Shown here one piece after another: positions 11,126-33,921 of a stretch of DNA of 33,921 nucleotides. The position numbers and the translations under genes were made by a program. Position 1 is the first letter of the stretch. Every line of letters starts with the position of its first letter. Below the pieces are notes generated by a model. That model was not told where the DNA came from. It worked only from the letters and a program-made list of their open reading frames with translations, and made no database searches. This stretch comes from a virus: IMG/VR virus record IMGVR_UViG_3300022591_000038, positions 1-33,921 of that record, one strand, 5' to 3'.

Positions 11126-12268
11126 ATGAGTGATGCGAAATTTGTTGAGACCTTTGAGTCTAAGTTGTTTGAAACTTTCCCCGATGTTGTTGCAACTGGC
11201 ATTGTTTCTCGTGCGCAAATTATGGAAATTATGGATACCGTTGGTACCAAGAAATTTCCAAGTTGGTTGATGGTGAATAAAGCTGGTCGTGGATTGTATG
11301 CCATCGACGGAGCCAAGGCACCAGTTGTTGGTAATCTTGCAGTTAAACCCGAGGAATCTTTTGTGATTGATTATAGTAATGTTGAATCTTTGATCCCTAA
11401 GAAAGATTCCAATTTCGTGCCTTTCGGCAACTACCCAGAACTCGAACAGATCATCAAGTCTGGCATTTTCTACCCATCATATATCTCTGGTCCAACTGGT
11501 AACGGCAAGTCTACCATGGTTGAGCAGATCTGTGCGAAACACAAGAAACCTTTGATTCGTGTTAACCTTAACATGATGACAGACGAAGACCAACTGATTG
11601 GTTCCAAAACTTTGGCCAATGGTAATGTGGAAATTGTCGAAGGTCCAGTGCTAATCGCAATGCGCAATGGTACTACACTGTTGCTTGACGAAATTGACGC
11701 TGGCTCAGCTAACACGCTGTTGTGTCTCCAGCCAATTCTCGAAGGTAAACCATATTACTTCAAACTCAAGAATGAGATGATCACCCCAGCCAATGGATTC
11801 AATGTTATTGCAACTGCGAACACAAAGGGTAAGGGTAGCGATGATGGTCGATACATTGGTACCAATGTGTTGAACGAAGCATTCTTGGAGCGATTTGCTG
11901 TAACCTTTGAACAAGAGTATCCAGCTGCCAAGGTTGAAGTTAAGATTATCAAGAACCTGATGCAAACTTATGAATGCGTCAACGAAGAATTTGCTCAGAC
12001 TCTCGTAACATGGGCAGAAGCAATTCGTAAGGTTTTTGATGAAGGTGGTGTTGACGAAACAATTACAACTCGTCGTATGATCCACATCGTTCGTGCCTAT
12101 GCAATCTTCAAGAGTGAGAAGAAGGCAGTTGAACTTTGTTGCAATCGTTTTGATGTTGCAACAAAACTGGCGTTCCAAGACTTGTTTGAGAAAGTATCAA
12201 ACCCAGTCGTGACTCCAGTGGCTCAGCCAACCCCAGAGCCAGAGCCGATGCAAGAAGTTCCGTTTTAA
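11126..12268 (+). CDS. MoxR/CobS-like AAA+ ATPase
   Basis: AAA+ ATPase of 380 aa. Walker A is GPTGNGKST (122-130), Walker B TTLLLDEID (183-191), sensor 1 ATAN (229-232) and an arginine-finger segment ERF (255-257). The sequence is of the MoxR/CobS clade often labelled CobS in cyanophages. These ATPases normally remodel a VWA-domain partner, here probably the protein at 8131-10311. Residues about 15-60 form a separate small module with FPSWLMVNKAGRGLYAI, which recurs in the next gene. ATG 11126 is preferred over GTG 11123, with GAAGGAA at 11112-11118 as ribosome site. The C-terminus is Pro/Glu-rich. It has its own promoter. Confidence 0.88.
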   Translation: MSDAKFVETFESKLFETFPDVVATGIVSRAQIMEIMDTVGTKKFPSWLMVNKAGRGLYAIDGAKAPVVGNLAVKPEESFVIDYSNVESLIPKKDSNFVPFGNYPELEQIIKSGIFYPSYISGPTGNGKSTMVEQICAKHKKPLIRVNLNMMTDEDQLIGSKTLANGNVEIVEGPVLIAMRNGTTLLLDEIDAGSANTLLCLQPILEGKPYYFKLKNEMITPANGFNVIATANTKGKGSDDGRYIGTNVLNEAFLERFAVTFEQEYPAAKVEVKIIKNLMQTYECVNEEFAQTLVTWAEAIRKVFDEGGVDETITTRRMIHIVRAYAIFKSEKKAVELCCNRFDVATKLAFQDLFEKVSNPVVTPVAQPTPEPEPMQEVPF

Positions 12269-12270
12269 AC

Positions 12271-12299
12271 TTGACATTTATTCGGAAATCGGGTATAAT
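12271..12299 (+). promoter_or_regulatory. sigma70-type promoter
   Basis: TTGACA at 12271-12276, 17-bp spacer, TATAAT at 12294-12299, both perfect, starting 2 nt after the ATPase stop codon. Confidence 0.9.
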
Positions 12300-12331
12300 T
12301 ATTACTGAAACTTGAAAAGGAATTACATATT

Positions 12332-12778
12332 ATGTTGAAATTTGCAGATCTTACTAAGTCACAAAAGCAGTTTATCGTTCGTACTCTTGAGAAATTTCCT
12401 GAGTATAAAACTGAGAAAACCCTTGGTGCCAAACAGATTCATGCTGCGTACTACGCCATGAAAGATGAGCGTGGCGCAACTGCTGAGAAGTTGGGTTACC
12501 CTAACTGGTTACAAAGCAAGAATCGTGTAGGTCGTGGTACTTATCAGATGCCATGGCCAACTGATAGCGAATTGTCCAAATTCGCTCAGGGAGTAGCAAC
12601 TCCCAAGCAACCTAAAGCTGTTGCTGTCAAATCTGTTAAAACTTCTGTGAAGAAGGTTGAATCGGATTCTGATGTTGAAGTGTCTCGTCTTCAATCTATT
12701 ATTAACGACTCAGTCGAGTTTGACGAAGACGTTGAAGACTTCAATCAGGTTTTGCGTGAGAATGGTATAGAGGTATAA
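12332..12778 (+). CDS. hypothetical protein sharing the N-terminal module of the MoxR-like ATPase
   Basis: Protein of 148 aa. Residues 17-74 (LEKFPEYKTE, then KQIHAAYY, then YPNWLQSKNRVGRGTYQMP) match residues 15-60 of the ATPase upstream in order and spacing, apart from a short insertion. The shared P-x-W-L and G-R-G-x-Y positions suggest a common small domain, perhaps a winged-helix-like nucleic-acid or protein-binding fold. A Lys-rich linker (about 95-117) and an acidic tail follow. It has its own strong promoter and terminator, so it can be made in excess over the ATPase. It may compete with or bridge to the ATPase's partner; this is inference. Confidence 0.75.
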   Translation: MLKFADLTKSQKQFIVRTLEKFPEYKTEKTLGAKQIHAAYYAMKDERGATAEKLGYPNWLQSKNRVGRGTYQMPWPTDSELSKFAQGVATPKQPKAVAVKSVKTSVKKVESDSDVEVSRLQSIINDSVEFDEDVEDFNQVLRENGIEV

Positions 12779-12791
12779 TTCTCACACTTAA

Positions 12792-12830
12792 ATCGGATGG
12801 GGGACTGCCATCTCCTCATCCGATCTTTTT
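12792..12830 (+). terminator. Rho-independent terminator
   Basis: Stem beginning atcggatg (12792-12799) and ending catccgat (about 12817-12824), extended inward by G-U and G-C pairs, followed by a T run. It stands 14 nt after the stop of the preceding gene. Confidence 0.87.
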
Positions 12831-12855
12831 TATTGATGGTTATTATGGAGATAAT

Positions 12856-13122
12856 ATGTCGAAACAGGCTAAATTGCTAAACCACTTACAACGTGGTGCC
12901 GAAGTTACTGCTAAGCAAATCGCTGGTTCATTTGGATTGAAAAACCCACACGATGCGATTCATCAGTTGCGTAATCAAGGTTACTGCATCTATGCGAATG
13001 CTGCAAAATTGTCCGATGGTACTAAGACTACTAAGTATCGTATCGGTCAACCAAGCAAGCGTATCGTTGCGATTGCGAATGCTGTTGTAGGTGCTTCTGC
13101 TTTTACTGCTCAACGTGGTTAA
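12856..13122 (+). CDS. small winged helix-turn-helix protein
   Basis: Protein of 88 aa. Residues 5-46 (KLLNHLQRGAEVTAKQIAGS, then NPHDAIHQLRNQGYCIY) form a typical winged helix-turn-helix: a first helix, the VTAKQIAGSFG turn helix, a recognition helix and a beta wing with TTKYRIG. It is most likely a DNA-binding regulator. The Ala-rich tail (68-88) may mediate oligomers. The ribosome site is GGAGATA before ATG 12856. It lies between two terminators without a clear promoter of its own, so it may depend on read-through from the upstream gene. Confidence 0.75.
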   Translation: MSKQAKLLNHLQRGAEVTAKQIAGSFGLKNPHDAIHQLRNQGYCIYANAAKLSDGTKTTKYRIGQPSKRIVAIANAVVGASAFTAQRG

Positions 13123-25830: not shown

Positions 25831-28326
25831 ATGCGATTTTATACCAATGTGTTTCCCTTCGGTAACGAAATGCGTGTCCGAGGATACGAAGATGGTAAAC
25901 CCTTTAGTGAAAAAATAGAATTCTTTCCAACCCTGTATGTGCCATCCAAGAAGTCAGATTCTAGATGGCGCACACTTGATGGTCAGATTGTAGATGAAGT
26001 TCGTCCAGGAACTGTCAAGGAAACACGTGAGTTCGTGAAAACCTATGACGATGTTTCTGGATTCAGCATTTATGGGAATACCAATTACGTTTATCAATTT
26101 ATCAGCGATATGTGGGAAAGCGACATTCGTTTTGACCCAGAACATGTTCGCACGTTTTACATTGATATTGAAACATCAACCGAGAATGGTTTCCCAGATA
26201 TTAAATCTGCCAATGAAGAAATCCTTCTTATCACTGTAAAAGACAGTAAGACTAAACAGATTATTACATTTGGTTCACGTCCATTCTATGGAAACACACG
26301 TGACGATGTTCAGTACATTCAATCAACAAACGAACTGCAACTTCTGAAGGACTTCCTGTCTTTCTGGTCAAAGAACTATCCCGATATCGTCACTGGTTGG
26401 AACACCGAGTTCTTCGATATACCTTATCTCATTCGCAGAATAGAAAGAGAACTTGGCGAGCAATATTCTAAGAAACTTTCGCCATGGGGTTTTATCAATG
26501 AACGTAAAACATTCATCAAGGGTAACGAAGAAATTCACTACGATATCCATGGTATCTCTCATCTAGATTATCTTGCTCTCTACAAGAAATTCACTTATCA
26601 GAAACAAGAGTCATATCGTCTTGACTACATTGCCGAACAAGAACTCGGCGATAAAAAGAAAGTCAATCCTGGCGATGACTTCAAAGCATTTTACACACAT
26701 CACTGGGAAGACTTCGTTCTCTATAACATTCATGACGTAGAGTTGGTTGAGAAGTTGGAAGATAAGATGCGTCTTATCGAGTTGAACCTAACCATGGCGT
26801 ATAACGCAAAGATTAACTATGAGGATGTTTTCTCACAGGTAAGAATGTGGGATGCGATTATCTACAATCACTTGCGTAAAAAGCATGTTGTTATTCCAAC
26901 CAAATCCTATGGTGCTGGCAAGGATACACAATTTGAAGGTGCTTACGTTAAAGATCCACTGATTGGTATGCATAAATGGGTTGCGTCATTTGACTTGAAC
27001 AGTCTATATCCGCACTTGATTATGCAATACAACATCAGTCCAGAAACATTGACACTTGAAAAGATTCCATGTTCAGTTGAGAAGTTGTTGAACCAAGAGG
27101 TTGACACTTCCTATGCAAAACAAAGGGATCTGACCATGACTGCGAACGGATGGTGTTATCGCAGGGATGTTAAAGGTTTCATGCCAGAGTTGATGGAAAA
27201 GATGTATTCCGACCGAAGCAAATTCAAGAAACAAATGCTCCGTGTTCAACAGGACTACGAACATGATAAATCCAACAAGAGTTTGGTCAAGGAAATCTCT
27301 CGACTGAATAACCTGCAGATGGCAATGAAGATTGCGTTGAACTCTGCTTATGGTGCCATGGGTAATCAGTATTTCCGTTACTTCGATATTCGTATGGCTG
27401 AAGGTATTACCACTTCTGGTCAGTTGTCTATTCGTTGGATGGCAAACGAGTTTAATCGTTATATGAATAAGATTATGAAGTCAACAGATAAAGACTACGT
27501 AATCGCAATTGATACTGACTCAATCTATCTGACACTTGAAGATCTTGTTGAACATGTTTGCGCAGGTAAAACTGACGAGCAGAAAATCAAGTATATGGAT
27601 AAGATCTGCGAAGATATGTTCCAACCATTCATTGATTCGACATATCAAAAGTTGGCTGACTATATGAATGCGTATAGTCAAAAGATGATTATGAAACGAG
27701 AGGTGCTTGCCGACAAGGCAATCTGGACTGCAAAGAAGAGATACATATTGAATGTACACAACTCAGAGGGTGTTCAGTTTGCCAAACCCAAGCTAAAAGT
27801 CATGGGTCTTGAGATGGTCAAGTCGTCAACTCCAATGGTTATCCGTGACAAGTTGAAAGACTCCATTGAGGTTATCCTTGATGGTGACGAACGTAAGTTG
27901 CATACATATATCAATAACTTCCATCAGGAGTTTAAGAAGATGCCAGTTGAGGATATCTCTTTCCCACGTGGCGTCAATGGTATGAAAACTTATTCTGGTT
28001 CGTCAATCTATTCGAAAGGCACACCTATCCATGTTCGTGGTTCTCTCTTGTTCAATCACTACATAAAGAAGATGGGTCTTGACAAGAAGTATCAACCTAT
28101 CAAAGATGGTGACAAGATTCGTTTCGTTTATGTCAAAAAGCCAAACCCATTCAACGAAGATGTCATTGCATTCCCAAGTGAACTTCCAAAAGAGTTTGGT
28201 TTGCATGACTTTATCGATTATGATCTGCAGTTTGAAAAGACTTTCCTTGATGCAATGCAAACTGTAATCCAACCACTTGGATGGAACACTGAAGAAAAAA
28301 CAAATCTGGAGGACTTCTTTGGATAA
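25831..28326 (+). CDS. 43: family B DNA polymerase gp43
   Basis: Replicative DNA polymerase of 831 aa, shorter than T4 gp43 (898). The proofreading exonuclease starts with YIDIETST (about 111-118). The polymerase motifs are DLNSLYPHL (motif A, Asp near 388), ALNSAYGAMGNQYFRY (motif B) and DTDSIYL (motif C, D561 and D563). The palm and thumb follow as usual. The last residues, TNLEDFFG, form a short hydrophobic-acidic tail like the clamp-binding tail of RB69 and T4 gp43. It overlaps the next gene by 8 nt. The only nearby promoter is that inside the exonuclease gene; RegA control, as in T4, is possible. Confidence 0.96.
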   Translation: MRFYTNVFPFGNEMRVRGYEDGKPFSEKIEFFPTLYVPSKKSDSRWRTLDGQIVDEVRPGTVKETREFVKTYDDVSGFSIYGNTNYVYQFISDMWESDIRFDPEHVRTFYIDIETSTENGFPDIKSANEEILLITVKDSKTKQIITFGSRPFYGNTRDDVQYIQSTNELQLLKDFLSFWSKNYPDIVTGWNTEFFDIPYLIRRIERELGEQYSKKLSPWGFINERKTFIKGNEEIHYDIHGISHLDYLALYKKFTYQKQESYRLDYIAEQELGDKKKVNPGDDFKAFYTHHWEDFVLYNIHDVELVEKLEDKMRLIELNLTMAYNAKINYEDVFSQVRMWDAIIYNHLRKKHVVIPTKSYGAGKDTQFEGAYVKDPLIGMHKWVASFDLNSLYPHLIMQYNISPETLTLEKIPCSVEKLLNQEVDTSYAKQRDLTMTANGWCYRRDVKGFMPELMEKMYSDRSKFKKQMLRVQQDYEHDKSNKSLVKEISRLNNLQMAMKIALNSAYGAMGNQYFRYFDIRMAEGITTSGQLSIRWMANEFNRYMNKIMKSTDKDYVIAIDTDSIYLTLEDLVEHVCAGKTDEQKIKYMDKICEDMFQPFIDSTYQKLADYMNAYSQKMIMKREVLADKAIWTAKKRYILNVHNSEGVQFAKPKLKVMGLEMVKSSTPMVIRDKLKDSIEVILDGDERKLHTYINNFHQEFKKMPVEDISFPRGVNGMKTYSGSSIYSKGTPIHVRGSLLFNHYIKKMGLDKKYQPIKDGDKIRFVYVKKPNPFNEDVIAFPSELPKEFGLHDFIDYDLQFEKTFLDAMQTVIQPLGWNTEEKTNLEDFFG

Positions 28327-28867
28327 TATTAGAATCATTAAGACTGGCATAAATGTCAGTCGCATTCTCTACGAACTGGAACAGTATCCAGAAGATTGGG
28401 GTCATCAACGCAATGTTAAAGATACAGAGTCTTTGCTTGATAGAGGATACAAAGATGTCGAGGCTGATGTTCTGCAGTTAATCATGGGTGGTGTTGAGAA
28501 GTCAGAAGACTTTGTTGGTGATAGTGAACTTTGCATTATTACACCAGCATACCACAAACACAAATACATTGTAAACTTTTTGAAGCGACACTTCAAGAAT
28601 GTCAGTCGTTGTGGTTTTCTTAAGTTACCAGTTGGTGGCACAGTAGGACTACATATTGACGAGGGAACCTACTATCATACACGTGATAGATACCATCTTT
28701 CAATACAGGGCAGATATCGTTACTTTGTTGGTGACGAATATGTAGATGTAGAGCCAGGAACTCTGTTGTGGTTTAACAATAAACTACCTCATGGCACTGA
28801 AAACATTGGAGATGTCCCTAGGATTACTTTTGTATTTGATGTTCCTCATAGCAAGAATAATCCATAA
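28319..28867 (+). CDS. aspartyl/asparaginyl beta-hydroxylase-like 2OG-Fe(II) oxygenase
   Basis: Protein of 182 aa in the cupin fold. The iron and 2-oxoglutarate sites are complete: H112-x-D114 (GLHIDEG), a distal H158 (LPHGTEN) and R168 (PRITFVF), with the RYHLSIQGRYRYFVG strand between them. This is the pattern of the aspartyl/asparaginyl beta-hydroxylase group, which hydroxylates protein side chains or small molecules. The start is TTG 28319: GGAGGA (28308-28313) sits 5-6 nt before it and no ATG is near. It overlaps the polymerase by 8 nt and is thus translationally coupled to it. Its substrate is unknown; a replication protein or the thioredoxin system next door is possible but speculative. 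Confidence 0.82.
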   Translation: MDNIRIIKTGINVSRILYELEQYPEDWGHQRNVKDTESLLDRGYKDVEADVLQLIMGGVEKSEDFVGDSELCIITPAYHKHKYIVNFLKRHFKNVSRCGFLKLPVGGTVGLHIDEGTYYHTRDRYHLSIQGRYRYFVGDEYVDVEPGTLLWFNNKLPHGTENIGDVPRITFVFDVPHSKNNP

Positions 28868-30257: not shown

Positions 30258-30584
30258 ATGCAAAAGATGCGTGGTCACGTTGTGATGGAAAACAAACACA
30301 ATGGTAATCGTGCGATAAAGTTGACAGACAAACCGTATGAGGGTATAATTTTCTCATACGGTGCTGTTTCCTTTGAAGAAGTTGATGACCATTTAAAGAT
30401 TAAGTTTGATTATGATATTCATAATGATGCTGGATACGATCTAGTCAAAGAAGAATTTGAACAATATCTTGGCGACTTCCTTCAGGAACTTATCCGTTAC
30501 GGTCTAGAAAATAATGAACTAATTTACACAGGTGGAATTGATGAGAATAGAACAGGCGATCCTATCGAACCTGATACACAATGA
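30258..30584 (+). CDS. conserved hypothetical protein between uvsX and gp41
   Basis: Protein of 108 aa with strands RAIKLTDKPYEGIIFSYG and LKIKFDYDIHN, then a helix (YDLVKEEFEQYLGDFLQEL). Short proteins of this kind stand between uvsX and gp41 in other T4-like phages, so a role in recombination or primosome work is possible but unproven. It carries a perfect promoter in its first third. The gp41 start lies 44 nt before its stop codon. Confidence 0.72.
   Translation: MQKMRGHVVMENKHNGNRAIKLTDKPYEGIIFSYGAVSFEEVDDHLKIKFDYDIHNDAGYDLVKEEFEQYLGDFLQELIRYGLENNELIYTGGIDENRTGDPIEPDTQ
30321..30349 (+). promoter_or_regulatory. sigma70-type promoter for gp41, inside the preceding gene
   Basis: TTGACA at 30321-30326, 17-bp spacer, TATAAT at 30344-30349, both perfect. 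It lies 190 nt before the gp41 ATG, in the coding sequence. Confidence 0.72.
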
Positions 30585-31938
30585 AGAATATTGCCGTAAG
30601 GTAGTTCCACATTTGAAGCGTGAGTATTTTGCAGATAGAAAAGAAGCAGCAATTGCTTCTTTGTTACTTTCGTTTTTTGAGCAGTATAATAAACCAGCTA
30701 GTCCTGAGATTTTGTCCATTGAAATTGGCAATCTCAAGGGATACACTGACAAAGAAATTCCTGAGTTACAGGAATATGTTAAACAACTAACTCATGAAGA
30801 ATCGAATCAAGAATGGTTGATTCAACAAAGTGAGAAGTTCTGTAAAGACAGGGCAGTTTATAATGCTATTCTTGGATCTATTAAAATCATCGAGGGAAAC
30901 GATAAGAATCACACGCAAGATGCCATCCCCTCTATTTTGTCTGAAGCACTTGCTGTTTGCTTCGATAACCATGTCGGTCATGACTATCTTCAGGATGCTG
31001 AATCTCGCTATGATTTTTATCATAGGGTGGAAGAGAAAGTTCCATTCGATCTTGACATGTTCAATAAAATCACTAAGGGTGGTTTGTCAAAGAAAACCCT
31101 TAACATCGCACTTGCTGGTACTGGTGTCGGTAAGTCTTTGTTTATGTGCCATGTTGGTGCTTCTGTTTTAATGCAGGGTAGAAATGTTCTTTACATCACA
31201 ATGGAGATGGCTGAAGAACGTATCGCCGAACGTATTGATGCAAACTTATTGAATCTTACGATGGATGAGTTGAAGGTAGTTGATCGCGATATCTTTGAGA
31301 ATCGTCTTGGTAAAATCTCTGACAAAACTAAGGGTAAACTTATTGTCAAAGAATATCCAACTGCCTCTGCCCATGCTGGTCACTTCCGTGCTCTACTTGA
31401 AGAGTTGAAGTTGAAGCGTGAGTTTAGTCCAGATATTATCTTCATTGACTATCTGAACATTTGTGCAAGTCAGCGTATGAAGATGGGTGCTTCTGTGAAC
31501 TCTTATACATATATTAAGTCAATCGCAGAAGAACTTCGTGGTTTGGCAGTTGAGTATAATGTTCCGATTGTTTCTGCAACACAAACAACTCGATCTGGTT
31601 ATACGAACTCTGACCCAGGACTTGAAGATACTTCTGAATCTTTTGGCTTGCCAGCGACAGCCGACTTTATGTTTGCGTTGGTGTCGAATGAAGAGTTGGA
31701 AGCATTGAATCAAATTATTGTTAAGCAGTTGAAGAATCGTTATAATGACCCAGGATATTATAAGCGATTTGTGATTGGTATTGATCGAGCGAAGATGAAA
31801 CTGTATGATGTTGAAGCATCTGCTCAAGAAGGTTTAAGTGATAGTGGTTCCAAAGATGACGACAAACCTTTATTCGATAAAAGTGATTTTGGTAGACGAA
31901 TACATAATGAGTCGGGATTTAAAGGGTTCAAGTTTTAG
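30541..31938 (+). CDS. 41: replicative DNA helicase gp41
   Basis: DnaB-family hexameric helicase of the phage primosome, 465 aa (T4 gp41 is 475). The N-terminal collar covers about 1-130. The RecA-like core has Walker A AGTGVGKS (193-200), the H1a segment LYITMEMAEERIAERI, Walker B IIFIDYLN and the SATQTTR motif of H3. ATG 30541 is preferred to GTG 30532 because AGGTGG precedes it by 5-10 nt; GTG would itself sit in that site. It overlaps the preceding gene by 44 nt. The partner primase gp61 is not in this window. Confidence 0.94.
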   Translation: MRIEQAILSNLIHNEEYCRKVVPHLKREYFADRKEAAIASLLLSFFEQYNKPASPEILSIEIGNLKGYTDKEIPELQEYVKQLTHEESNQEWLIQQSEKFCKDRAVYNAILGSIKIIEGNDKNHTQDAIPSILSEALAVCFDNHVGHDYLQDAESRYDFYHRVEEKVPFDLDMFNKITKGGLSKKTLNIALAGTGVGKSLFMCHVGASVLMQGRNVLYITMEMAEERIAERIDANLLNLTMDELKVVDRDIFENRLGKISDKTKGKLIVKEYPTASAHAGHFRALLEELKLKREFSPDIIFIDYLNICASQRMKMGASVNSYTYIKSIAEELRGLAVEYNVPIVSATQTTRSGYTNSDPGLEDTSESFGLPATADFMFALVSNEELEALNQIIVKQLKNRYNDPGYYKRFVIGIDRAKMKLYDVEASAQEGLSDSGSKDDDKPLFDKSDFGRRIHNESGFKGFKF

Positions 31939-31947
31939 GAGAAAAAT

Positions 31948-33300
31948 ATGGTAAAGGTAATTGTAGCAGATAGAAAACACGATTGTTCCCATCTGGTTGG
32001 GCAATTCTTAGATGAGTCACACTACGACATTCTTATTGAAGAAGACTGTGATGTGTATATGCCAGCAACCTGCGATATCGGAACACAATCAGCATGTGAA
32101 TTAAATCGCGATTGTGCCGCATGCGATAAGGGCACTGATGAGCAACGCATTGCGTTTAAGTTCCGCAAGAACTTCTTCACGAAAGAACAACAAGATGCAG
32201 CATATGCTGGTCTGCGTGAAGCTGCAACCGAAACTCAAAACCGTGGAGCTGCAGCTGGACCACGTGGTGAGAAGTTGGGTAATCGTGAGTGGGTTCGTGA
32301 ATATGAATACGACATCGTTGAGTATTTTATGAATCCAGTTGACAATCTTTTCGGCGAAGATCCGATTGAAGAAATCAAGAAGAAGCATGCTGGTAAGCGT
32401 GAGGCTATCTCCAATCGTAACAATGTTTGGTCAATCGAACGTACAAAAGAAATCAACTTCAACTTTGAAGAGTGGGTTGAAAAGACACGCAAGTTGCCAA
32501 AAGAAGAACAGATCAAAGAAGGAAACTTCGTTGCTGATAAGTTAATCTGCGCAACTACCTATGCCAACTCTGTGTTCTCTGGTATCGCTGGTTGGTTCGA
32601 TCGTTATCCTCGTATTCCTTATGGTCGTGCAACTGCATATACCGCAAAGAATCCAGAGAAGTTTGCCCTTGCGTTTCCATTCCTACAAACTTTGGCAAAA
32701 GGTTTCAAGGATTTGATGCCATGGCGATATAACAATCAGATGGAAGCGATTAAGAAAATTGATCCAGCATTCATTGTTCCAGGAACTCCGTTCACAACTA
32801 TTACTGTGAACAAAACATTCCGCACTGCTGCTCACTATGACGCTGGTGATTTTTGGCCAGGACTTTCAAACCTGTTGGTTCTGTCAAACAATGGTAACTA
32901 CACTGGTGGATATTTGATTGCACCTGAGTATCGTGTTGCAGTTAATGTGCGTCCTGGCGATCTGTTATTGATTAACAATCACGAAGTTCTGCATGGCAAT
33001 ACACCTATCGTTCTTGGTGACGATGAAGCTGAACGAATCTCTTTGGTATGTTATCTTCGTGATGGTATGCTTCAACTTGGTTCAAAAGACTATGAAGACT
33101 GCCGTTATCAGTATGTCGAAGATCGTAAAAACAATAAGGAACATCCACTGCAACGTAAGTTGTGGAATGGTGTGTCTGAAGGTATGTGGGCACAGGATGA
33201 ATGGTATGACTATCTGAGAAATAAACTTGGTCAAGAAGTTCTTGAGAAGTATCACCCAGAGTCTATCAAATCAAATTCACTTGATGAGTTCTTCGGATGA
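31948..33300 (+). CDS. TET/JBP-like 2OG-Fe(II) DNA base oxygenase
   Basis: Protein of 450 aa with a C-terminal oxygenase core of the TET/JBP group. The site is complete: H296-x-D298 (AAHYDAGD), the GGYLIAPEYRVAV strand, GDLLLINNHEVLHGN with H349, and R363 (ERISLVCYLRD). TET/JBP enzymes hydroxylate 5-methylcytosine or thymine in DNA. The N-terminal 60 residues hold several Cys (C13, C34, C42, C50, C56, C59) that may bind metal; a basic helical part follows. The last residues are SNSLDEFFG, like the clamp-binding tails of gp43 and gp55 here. It follows gp41 closely with ribosome site AGGAGAAAA and overlaps the nucleotidyltransferase gene by ATGA. Substrate base unknown: no cytosine methyltransferase or hydroxymethylase is in this window. 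Confidence 0.85.
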   Translation: MVKVIVADRKHDCSHLVGQFLDESHYDILIEEDCDVYMPATCDIGTQSACELNRDCAACDKGTDEQRIAFKFRKNFFTKEQQDAAYAGLREAATETQNRGAAAGPRGEKLGNREWVREYEYDIVEYFMNPVDNLFGEDPIEEIKKKHAGKREAISNRNNVWSIERTKEINFNFEEWVEKTRKLPKEEQIKEGNFVADKLICATTYANSVFSGIAGWFDRYPRIPYGRATAYTAKNPEKFALAFPFLQTLAKGFKDLMPWRYNNQMEAIKKIDPAFIVPGTPFTTITVNKTFRTAAHYDAGDFWPGLSNLLVLSNNGNYTGGYLIAPEYRVAVNVRPGDLLLINNHEVLHGNTPIVLGDDEAERISLVCYLRDGMLQLGSKDYEDCRYQYVEDRKNNKEHPLQRKLWNGVSEGMWAQDEWYDYLRNKLGQEVLEKYHPESIKSNSLDEFFG

Positions 33301-33707
33301 GAAGCGGATTTACCTGCTCCACATTTGACCTGCTGCATGCTGGTCACATACTAATGCTTAAAGAAGCACGGGAACAGTGTGACTTTTTGGTAGTGGGATT
33401 GCAAACTGATCCCACTATCGATCGTCCAGATACAAAGAACAAACCAGTTCAAAGTGTAGTTGAACGCTGGATTCAACTAGACGCTGTTAAATATGTTGAT
33501 CAGATTATTGTATATCAAACTGAGAAAGATCTTGAAGACTTGCTGAAGATTCTTGACATTGATGTAAGAATCCTCGGTGATGAGTATGCAGAAAAACCTT
33601 TCACTGGCAAAGAAATTTGCCTTGCAAGGGGAATTGAGCTATACTTTAATAAACGGGAACATTCTTTCTCCACAACTGAATTGAGACAAAGGGTTAAACA
33701 ATTATGA
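33297..33707 (+). CDS. TagD/GCT-like nucleotidyltransferase
   Basis: Cytidylyltransferase-family protein of 136 aa, the normal size for glycerol-3-phosphate cytidylyltransferase (TagD). The nucleotide-binding HxGH is HAGH (14-17, FDLLHAGHILML), followed by VVGLQTDPT, an ERWIQLDAVKYVDQI segment (the conserved Arg of the family), GDEYAEKPFTGKE and the C-terminal STTELRQR signature. It would join CTP (or another NTP) to a phosphorylated small molecule such as glycerol-3-phosphate or a sugar phosphate. Overlaps by ATGA on both sides tie it to the oxygenase and the glycosyltransferase. Exact substrate cannot be read from the sequence. Confidence 0.85.
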   Translation: MRSGFTCSTFDLLHAGHILMLKEAREQCDFLVVGLQTDPTIDRPDTKNKPVQSVVERWIQLDAVKYVDQIIVYQTEKDLEDLLKILDIDVRILGDEYAEKPFTGKEICLARGIELYFNKREHSFSTTELRQRVKQL

Positions 33708-33921
33708 AAATTATGATGGTAATGCATACCTTCAATAACTTCGGTGGTATTATTAACCACTGTGAGCATTTAATGGCTGGTTTAAAAGAATTGGGTCACG
33801 AAGTTACCTTTGCTTATCTCAAGGGTAACAAAACTGTTAAGCCAGTTGAAATCCCACAACAATTGAGTGAAGGATGGGAGATTGGTATTGGTTCTGGTTA
33901 TCCAGTGCATCAGGGTGATGG
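33704..33921 (+). CDS. glycosyltransferase, N-terminal part (cut by window end)
   Basis: The first 72 residues of a larger gene. The start MHTFNNFGGIINHCEHL, then LMAGLKELGHEVTFAYL, is the N-terminal Rossmann fold of GT-B glycosyltransferases (GT4-like): a first strand ending in a Gly-Gly loop, a helix and the GHEVT second strand. It overlaps the nucleotidyltransferase by ATGA. In this context it may transfer a sugar or other group to an oxidised base in phage DNA; an enzyme that acts on cell-envelope sugars is the alternative. The catalytic C-terminal half lies outside the window. Confidence 0.78.
   Translation, partial: MKIMMVMHTFNNFGGIINHCEHLMAGLKELGHEVTFAYLKGNKTVKPVEIPQQLSEGWEIGIGSGYPVHQGD

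Follow-up and report, generated by a model that had tools for sequence, protein, structure and literature searches.

In phages, the pairing of a TET-type dioxygenase with a glycosyltransferase is already known, and Iyer et al. reportedly predicted, in the abstract of a 2013 paper, that TET products are starting points for further modification. Here we analyse such a pairing, together with a nucleotidyltransferase encoded between the two, at the end of a 33,921-nucleotide stretch of viral DNA (IMG/VR record IMGVR_UViG_3300022591_000038, positions 1 to 33,921; hereafter, the window). Phage TETs accompanied by a C5-methyltransferase and glycosyltransferases have been published (Burke et al. 2021, as cited in PMC12730594), and, as far as the citing paper describes them, these C5-cytosine systems resemble the window in that a TET is followed by a glycosyltransferase, with a hydroxymethyl group as the handle. 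Set against that same partial description, the window differs in that no C5-methyltransferase was found in it or in the long records of relatives sharing its main genomic backbone, and in that its glycosyltransferase is GT4-like, without a match to PF20691. The glycosyltransferases of this Pfam family (TAGT) are encoded directly after TET in Nonlabens phage P12024L (4e-21) and Synechococcus phage S-CBWM1 (3.5e-10), as in the window, but the glycosyltransferase of the window comes from another family, of the PF00534 type with a GT-B fold.

Three further systems offer partial parallels. In the ViI-like Ackermannviridae, thymidine hypermodification involves a 5-hydroxymethyldeoxyuridine (5hmdU) DNA kinase and an amino acid:DNA transferase (ADDT) matched by PF18724, and relatives of the window likewise carry PF18724 and a P-loop kinase after TET. 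In contrast to these viruses, a TET stands in place of the thymidylate-synthase homologue, the kinase of the relatives belongs to Ploopntkinase3 and not to HMUDK or HMUD2, and the window itself has a glycosyltransferase instead of ADDT. The kinetoplastid base J pathway (JBP1/2 and JGT) would be similar if thymine is the base, as a TET/JBP enzyme oxidises thymine in DNA before glycosylation, although the window has phage enzymes and a different glycosyltransferase. Finally, T4 glucosylates hydroxymethylcytosine (dCMP hydroxymethylase, alpha- and beta-glucosyltransferases), again placing a sugar on a hydroxymethyl group in DNA, but the hydroxymethyl group is put on the nucleotide before replication by a PF00303 enzyme, and no PF00303 gene was found in the window. 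The locus is thus distinguished from TET-glycosyltransferase systems already known in phages by the family of its glycosyltransferase, the missing source of 5-methylcytosine (5mC), and its exchangeable cassette.

We consider it highly probable that this locus hypermodifies a base of the phage's own DNA through TET oxidation followed by sugar transfer, with TET as a fixed front end, a reading that, like every functional statement below, is built on homology and context. The initial annotation had proposed a hypermodification locus of this kind, and the conserved linkage of the two genes and the swapping of the downstream cassette support that prediction well. It had also described three genes joined by ATGA overlaps, and both the open frames and the two overlaps were confirmed. 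The features of the locus are as follows.

31948..33300, + strand: predicted TET/JBP-type 2-oxoglutarate (2OG)-Fe(II) DNA dioxygenase, 450 amino acids (aa), phrog_24024, from the Tet_JBP match, AlphaFold model and fold matches
32833..32841, + strand: HxD iron-binding motif H296-Y-D298, invariant
32848..32850, + strand: D301 (HxD+3), aligned with CMD1 D350, NgTET1 D234 and TET2 N1387
32992..32994, + strand: H349, third iron ligand, invariant
33034..33060, + strand: R363 (2OG binding), Y369 (base stacking position) and R371 (position of CMD1 R418), from the alignment, with roles by analogy
33297..33707, + strand: TagD-like nucleotidyltransferase, 136 aa, with HAGH at 33336-33347 and STTEL at 33669-33683
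33704..33921, + strand: 5′ end of a GT4-type GT-B glycosyltransferase, cut by the window end and complete (447 aa) in locus L003 at 11757-13100

We place the oxygenase in the TET/JBP clade because profile, database and fold comparisons agree. The protein matches Pfam Tet_JBP (PF12851) at 2e-25 (89.4 bits, with a cut-off of 34.9) and PHROG 24024 over its whole length at 2e-166, while a PDB search with the family profile picks up human TET2 (8e-4), the match covering the HxD segment as well as the H...R segment. In a fold search with its AlphaFold model (predicted local distance difference test score, pLDDT, of 82.5), the first 26 PDB matches were all CcTET, TET2, NgTET1 or CMD1, and other 2OG enzymes appeared only from 3e-5, with FTO the next. 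A structure prediction outside this clade would have spoken against the initial annotation, but the best fold matches are all TET-type enzymes. The full 2OG-Fe(II) site that it had read from the sequence is likewise in place: H296, D298, H349 and R363 do not vary among 81 full-length relatives, including those of phages Cr30 and DLP6 (48% identity), or among 12 highly divergent phage TETs, in which the alignment shows Y369 to be invariant as well. No relative was confirmed in 84,980 prokaryote genomes by a pattern search of limited sensitivity. In the public records KF301602, KU682439, MG450654 and MN698246, TETs of this family are labelled "SNF2 DNA repair protein", which looks like a misannotation, as do the labels "queuine tRNA-ribosyltransferase" for a TET PHROG and "terminase small subunit" for the PHROG matched by the kinases discussed below.

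Only the first 72 aa of the glycosyltransferase are encoded within the window, and this stub is only suggestive when taken alone (Glyco_transf_4, 0.005), so we describe the protein from locus L003, which is 99.8% identical to the window across 11,974 shared bases and extends past position 33921. The complete protein of 447 aa matches Glycos_transf_1 (PF00534) at 2e-9, and its model (pLDDT 77.8) finds the GT-B enzymes BshA (9e-14) and PimA (6e-13), together with MshA, PglA and the T4 DNA alpha-glucosyltransferase (5e-11); searched against TAGT (PF20691), it gave no match. By profile and modelled fold, it is thus a predicted GT4-type enzyme with the two-domain GT-B fold, and the earlier suggestion that the third gene starts like a GT-B glycosyltransferase holds for the entire protein. 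That DNA is its acceptor is something we infer from linkage. An independent search with the glycosyltransferase alone returned 53 loci, 46 of which, the window included, had enough upstream sequence, and in 44 of these 46 a TET was encoded no more than two genes upstream, often with a 4-base overlap. The two loci without TET hold distant relatives (29% identity). This linkage holds across two unrelated phage backbones.

A further indication that these enzymes act together comes from what replaces the glycosyltransferase in related phages. We classed 134 loci according to the genes between TET and a conserved 229-aa phage protein (c8), which in L003 follows the glycosyltransferase directly. Fifty loci were of the glycosyltransferase type, 47 carried ADDT, and ten carried a 335-aa protein (c24); a further 18 contigs had only a glutamine amidotransferase (GATase) gene that is otherwise seen with ADDT, and nine were unassigned. 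The three classes never co-occur, and 38, 31 and six loci, respectively, are complete to c8. The ADDT class is defined by PF18724 (4e-21; 1e-52 in Cr30), the family also matched in the ViI-like Ackermannviridae and not found in L003, and it usually carries a P-loop kinase along with tailoring genes, such as a class II glutamine amidotransferase or GNAT. These kinases match Ploopntkinase3 and not PF18747 or PF18748 (HMUDK/HMUD2), and a profile comparison with HMUD2 was weak. A full kinase with Walker A was present only beside ADDT (33 loci). Two loci of the glycosyltransferase type (L099 and L131) keep 114-aa kinase remnants without Walker A, which we read as traces of a pathway that was replaced.

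Because near-identical metagenomic contigs were counted, the class counts are not independent events, and the TET tree and the comparison of junctions provide better evidence for swapping. On the tree, the three cassette states require at least seven changes. The TET of the window groups with TETs of the ADDT and c24 types, outside the main clade of the glycosyltransferase type (with moderate support at the fork), and its glycosyltransferase shares 79-86% identity with the enzymes that accompany TETs of a different clade. In the second backbone, the DNA of loci L119 and L157 is for the most part 95-100% identical through TET as far as the stop codon. Past it, identity falls to 20-33%, and L119 has a glycosyltransferase and L157 a 261-aa protein; in close relatives of the latter (L158-L160), this protein is followed by ADDT and the kinase. 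By these sequence comparisons, TET is the constant gene of a locus in the replication module, and the cassette downstream is exchanged, as would be expected if all of the exchanged modifying enzymes act on the product of TET.

Several of the genes found in these cassettes may be of interest in their own right. The 261-aa protein between TET and ADDT (L158:9359-10144 and L159:6062-6847, also in L157 and L160) has a GGAG motif resembling that of a Rossmann methyltransferase. We considered it as a C5-methyltransferase and rejected the idea, having found no Pfam or PDB match and seen no Pro-Cys motif; it could possibly be a tailoring enzyme. For the 335-aa c24 (L055:11889-12896 and nine other loci), which has a 151-aa partner in some loci, there was no convincing Pfam or PHROG family, and a profile comparison with the glycosyltransferase gave nothing, so that it was dropped as a relative of that enzyme. 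A 197-aa gene product encoded directly after TET in L025, L028, L055 and L057 resembles a 2OG oxygenase by sequence. A gene for myo-inositol-1-phosphate synthase lies inside the TET-ADDT-kinase cassette of phage Cr30 (L082, 25293-26474) and of two further loci (L064:5020-6297 and L065), which suggests an inositol-derived decoration, while in phage C48C1 (L085, 17375-18385), a UDP-galactopyranose mutase (GLF, 6e-52) is encoded two genes after TET and could possibly supply a galactofuranose donor for that variant. In Microbacterium phage Terij (L170, 1-2155), the end of the genome holds overlapping genes for a ParB-like protein, a TET and a Ploopntkinase3 kinase (3.5e-19), the last of them annotated as a HicA-like toxin, and no C5-methyltransferase was found in this group; there, the kinase alone may phosphorylate the TET product.

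We propose that the DNA of the phage would be hypermodified after or during replication. TET (31948-33300) would oxidise the C5-methyl group of a pyrimidine in DNA to a hydroxymethyl group, and the glycosyltransferase (33704 onward) would then move a sugar from a nucleotide-sugar to the hydroxyl of that group, with retention of configuration as judged from its fold. The nucleotidyltransferase would have an accessory role, perhaps in activating a sugar or polyol that carries a phosphate. The hydroxymethyl group would serve as a common handle, behind which related phages place ADDT, a kinase and tailoring enzymes instead. The purpose may be protection from host nucleases, and the swapped decorations probably keep the DNA of related phages unrecognisable to bacterial defences. 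While TET-based modification of phage DNA is itself known, the phages compared here pair a single oxidase with three or more mutually exclusive decoration modules in one genomic slot, and these include the ADDT type, which so far had been tied to 5hmdU made by a hydroxymethylase. If thymine is the base, its oxidation within DNA would open another way into thymidine hypermodification and would parallel base J in a virus. Phage Cr30, which infects a laboratory Caulobacter strain and carries the version of the locus with TET and ADDT, provides a testable case.

Which base is oxidised is a matter on which we lean towards thymine, converted to 5-hydroxymethyluracil in the manner of JBP, as the most likely candidate, with 5mC a less likely second choice. 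In characterised phages, ADDT is a step of thymidine hypermodification built on 5hmdU (for the pathway, see PMC6449724). The two ViI-like Ackermannviridae tested, CBA120 and Vibrio phage 1.255.O, have ADDT and a PF00303 gene but no TET, which speaks for thymine. No PF00303 gene was found in main-backbone TET records of 127-174 kb, the exception among TET-ADDT relatives being a canonical ThyA-like gene in Cr30. Similarly, no PF00145 gene was found in main-backbone TET relatives of 127-174 kb or in Cr30, DLP6, C48C1 and S-CBWM1, and for the long metagenomic records, these absences are suggestive only, because no record is certified complete. The PF00145 search is able to see such genes, since it detected the C5-methyltransferase that overlaps TET in Methylophilales phage Melnitz-3. 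Within the window, a 33.9-kb fragment, neither a C5-methyltransferase (PF00145) nor a gene of the thymidylate-synthase family (PF00303) was matched, as the initial annotation had stated. The fullest version of the thymine proposal is a phage counterpart of base J, in which TET would make 5-hydroxymethyluracil from thymine in DNA and the GT4-type enzyme would glycosylate it, while in sister phages TET would feed ADDT and replace dUMP hydroxymethylase post-replicatively, the decoration being swapped at the TET stop codon; the case for and against this version in its entirety seems to us evenly balanced.

Several observations weigh against thymine or against the hypermodification reading as a whole. 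D301 matches the Asp or Asn that reads N4 of 5mC in CMD1, NgTET1 and TET2, and it does not favour thymine; in these enzymes, D350, D234 and N1387, respectively, contact the C4 position of the base or N4 of 5mC (PMC7854593), and it is from this work that the roles suggested for D301, R363, Y369 and R371 are taken by analogy. One second-backbone record with TET, ADDT and the kinase (G027, locus L173) carries an intact C5-methyltransferase (934-2256), which tens of kilobases separate from its TET; no other was found in the TET family of the window. Melnitz-3 couples its C5-methyltransferase to a TET and to a weak relative of the Ploopntkinase3 kinase family, so this kinase is not specific for thymine, and we dropped it as proof of that base. 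As regards hypermodification in general, the glycosyltransferase is of a general GT4 type that could in principle glycosylate something else, and we found no nucleoside analysis of any relative.

Some of the same observations fit an alternative with cytosine as the base, in which 5mC comes from a C5-methyltransferase, either of the host or encoded by the phage beyond the window, before TET converts it to 5-hydroxymethylcytosine and the glycosyltransferase adds the sugar. Published phage systems provide a precedent, at least as they are cited in PMC12730594 (Burke et al. 2021); Melnitz-3 and G027 show that the required methyltransferase can accompany such TETs; and D301 and R371 match CMD1, a 5mC enzyme, although a comparison of these two residues across CMD1, NgTET1, TET2 and phage TETs, some accompanied by a C5-methyltransferase and some not, gave no clear reading of the base. 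We nevertheless judge this cytosine route to be doubtful, given that the PF00145 search came back empty for the window and for the relatives listed above, that most TET-ADDT relatives lack a source of 5mC, and that ADDT is so far a thymidine-modification family.

A second question concerns the nucleotidyltransferase, which the initial annotation had taken to suggest that the donor is linked to cytidine diphosphate (CDP). GT4 folds use nucleotide sugars, and known CDP-glycerol transferases belong to another family. The identification of the gene itself is sound: both the HAGH and STTEL motifs noted earlier are present, the protein matches CTP_transf_like at 5.5e-14 and, over its full length, the glycerol-3-phosphate cytidylyltransferases 2b7l (2e-14) and 1coz (3e-13), and its PHROG family is labelled heptose adenylyltransferase-like. 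That it makes a specific activated donor for the glycosyltransferase of the window is suggested by an operon shared by both genes in three lineages, represented by the window and its near-identical records, by L097 and by L103, and by its closest solved relatives, which are glycerol-3-phosphate and ethanolamine-phosphate cytidylyltransferases. However, the gene accompanies TET only in loci of the glycosyltransferase type and, among these, is confined to the three lineages, glycosyltransferases 79-86% identical to that of the window occur without an adjoining nucleotidyltransferase, and none was found elsewhere in nine larger records of this type. Since most of these glycosyltransferase loci do without the gene, the case for a CDP-linked donor is weak; together with the family difference mentioned above, this makes a dedicated donor unlikely in our view, and this part of the initial annotation is not supported.

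Beyond the glycosyltransferase loci, the nucleotidyltransferase turns up in various unrelated phages with no TET nearby, and this distribution could be taken to mean that it and the glycosyltransferase serve surface-polysaccharide, teichoic-acid or virion glycosylation and adjoin TET by chance. Both families are common in cell-envelope pathways, and BshA, PimA and PglA are among the enzymes whose folds come closest to that of the glycosyltransferase. We rejected this envelope reading as very improbable on account of the TET linkage described above and of the genes that follow in L003, where no polysaccharide, lipopolysaccharide or teichoic-acid cluster was found after the glycosyltransferase and the sequence returns directly, with c8 and then more phage genes, to ordinary phage functions; such a cluster would have contradicted the initial annotation. 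The glycosyltransferase also trades places with ADDT, a family in which DNA is the substrate of the known members. We consider it just as improbable that TET acts on RNA, tRNA or a free nucleotide. In favour of this, nearby families of 2OG oxygenases have RNA substrates, FTO and ALKBH are among the weaker fold matches, and a weak relative in PHROG carries the label queuine tRNA-ribosyltransferase. Against it, all of the top 26 fold matches are TET enzymes of DNA bases, with FTO far behind; the gene sits in a replication module beside the polymerase, UvsX and helicase, and its locus alternates cassettes with an amino acid:DNA transferase.

This module is T4-like and comprises, around the locus, a polymerase, UvsX, a DnaB-like helicase, a clamp, a clamp loader, a gp46/47-like nuclease, a ligase and a late sigma factor, and the window is probably a fragment of a T4-like genome of 160-170 kb. 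Nearly every main-backbone locus has the gene for the DnaB-like helicase upstream of TET as its neighbour, and two features at this boundary lie outside the three genes described above.

30532..31938, + strand: DnaB-like (gp41-type) replicative helicase (phrog_19, 1e-127), context outside the cassette
31937..31941, + strand: AGGAG, the likely ribosome-binding site of TET, overlapping the helicase stop, as read from the sequence

Further upstream, at 28277-28867 and directly after the DNA polymerase gene, the window encodes another possible 2OG-Fe(II)/cupin oxygenase, with matches to Asp_Arg_Hydrox (1e-5) and phrog_32420 (2e-77).

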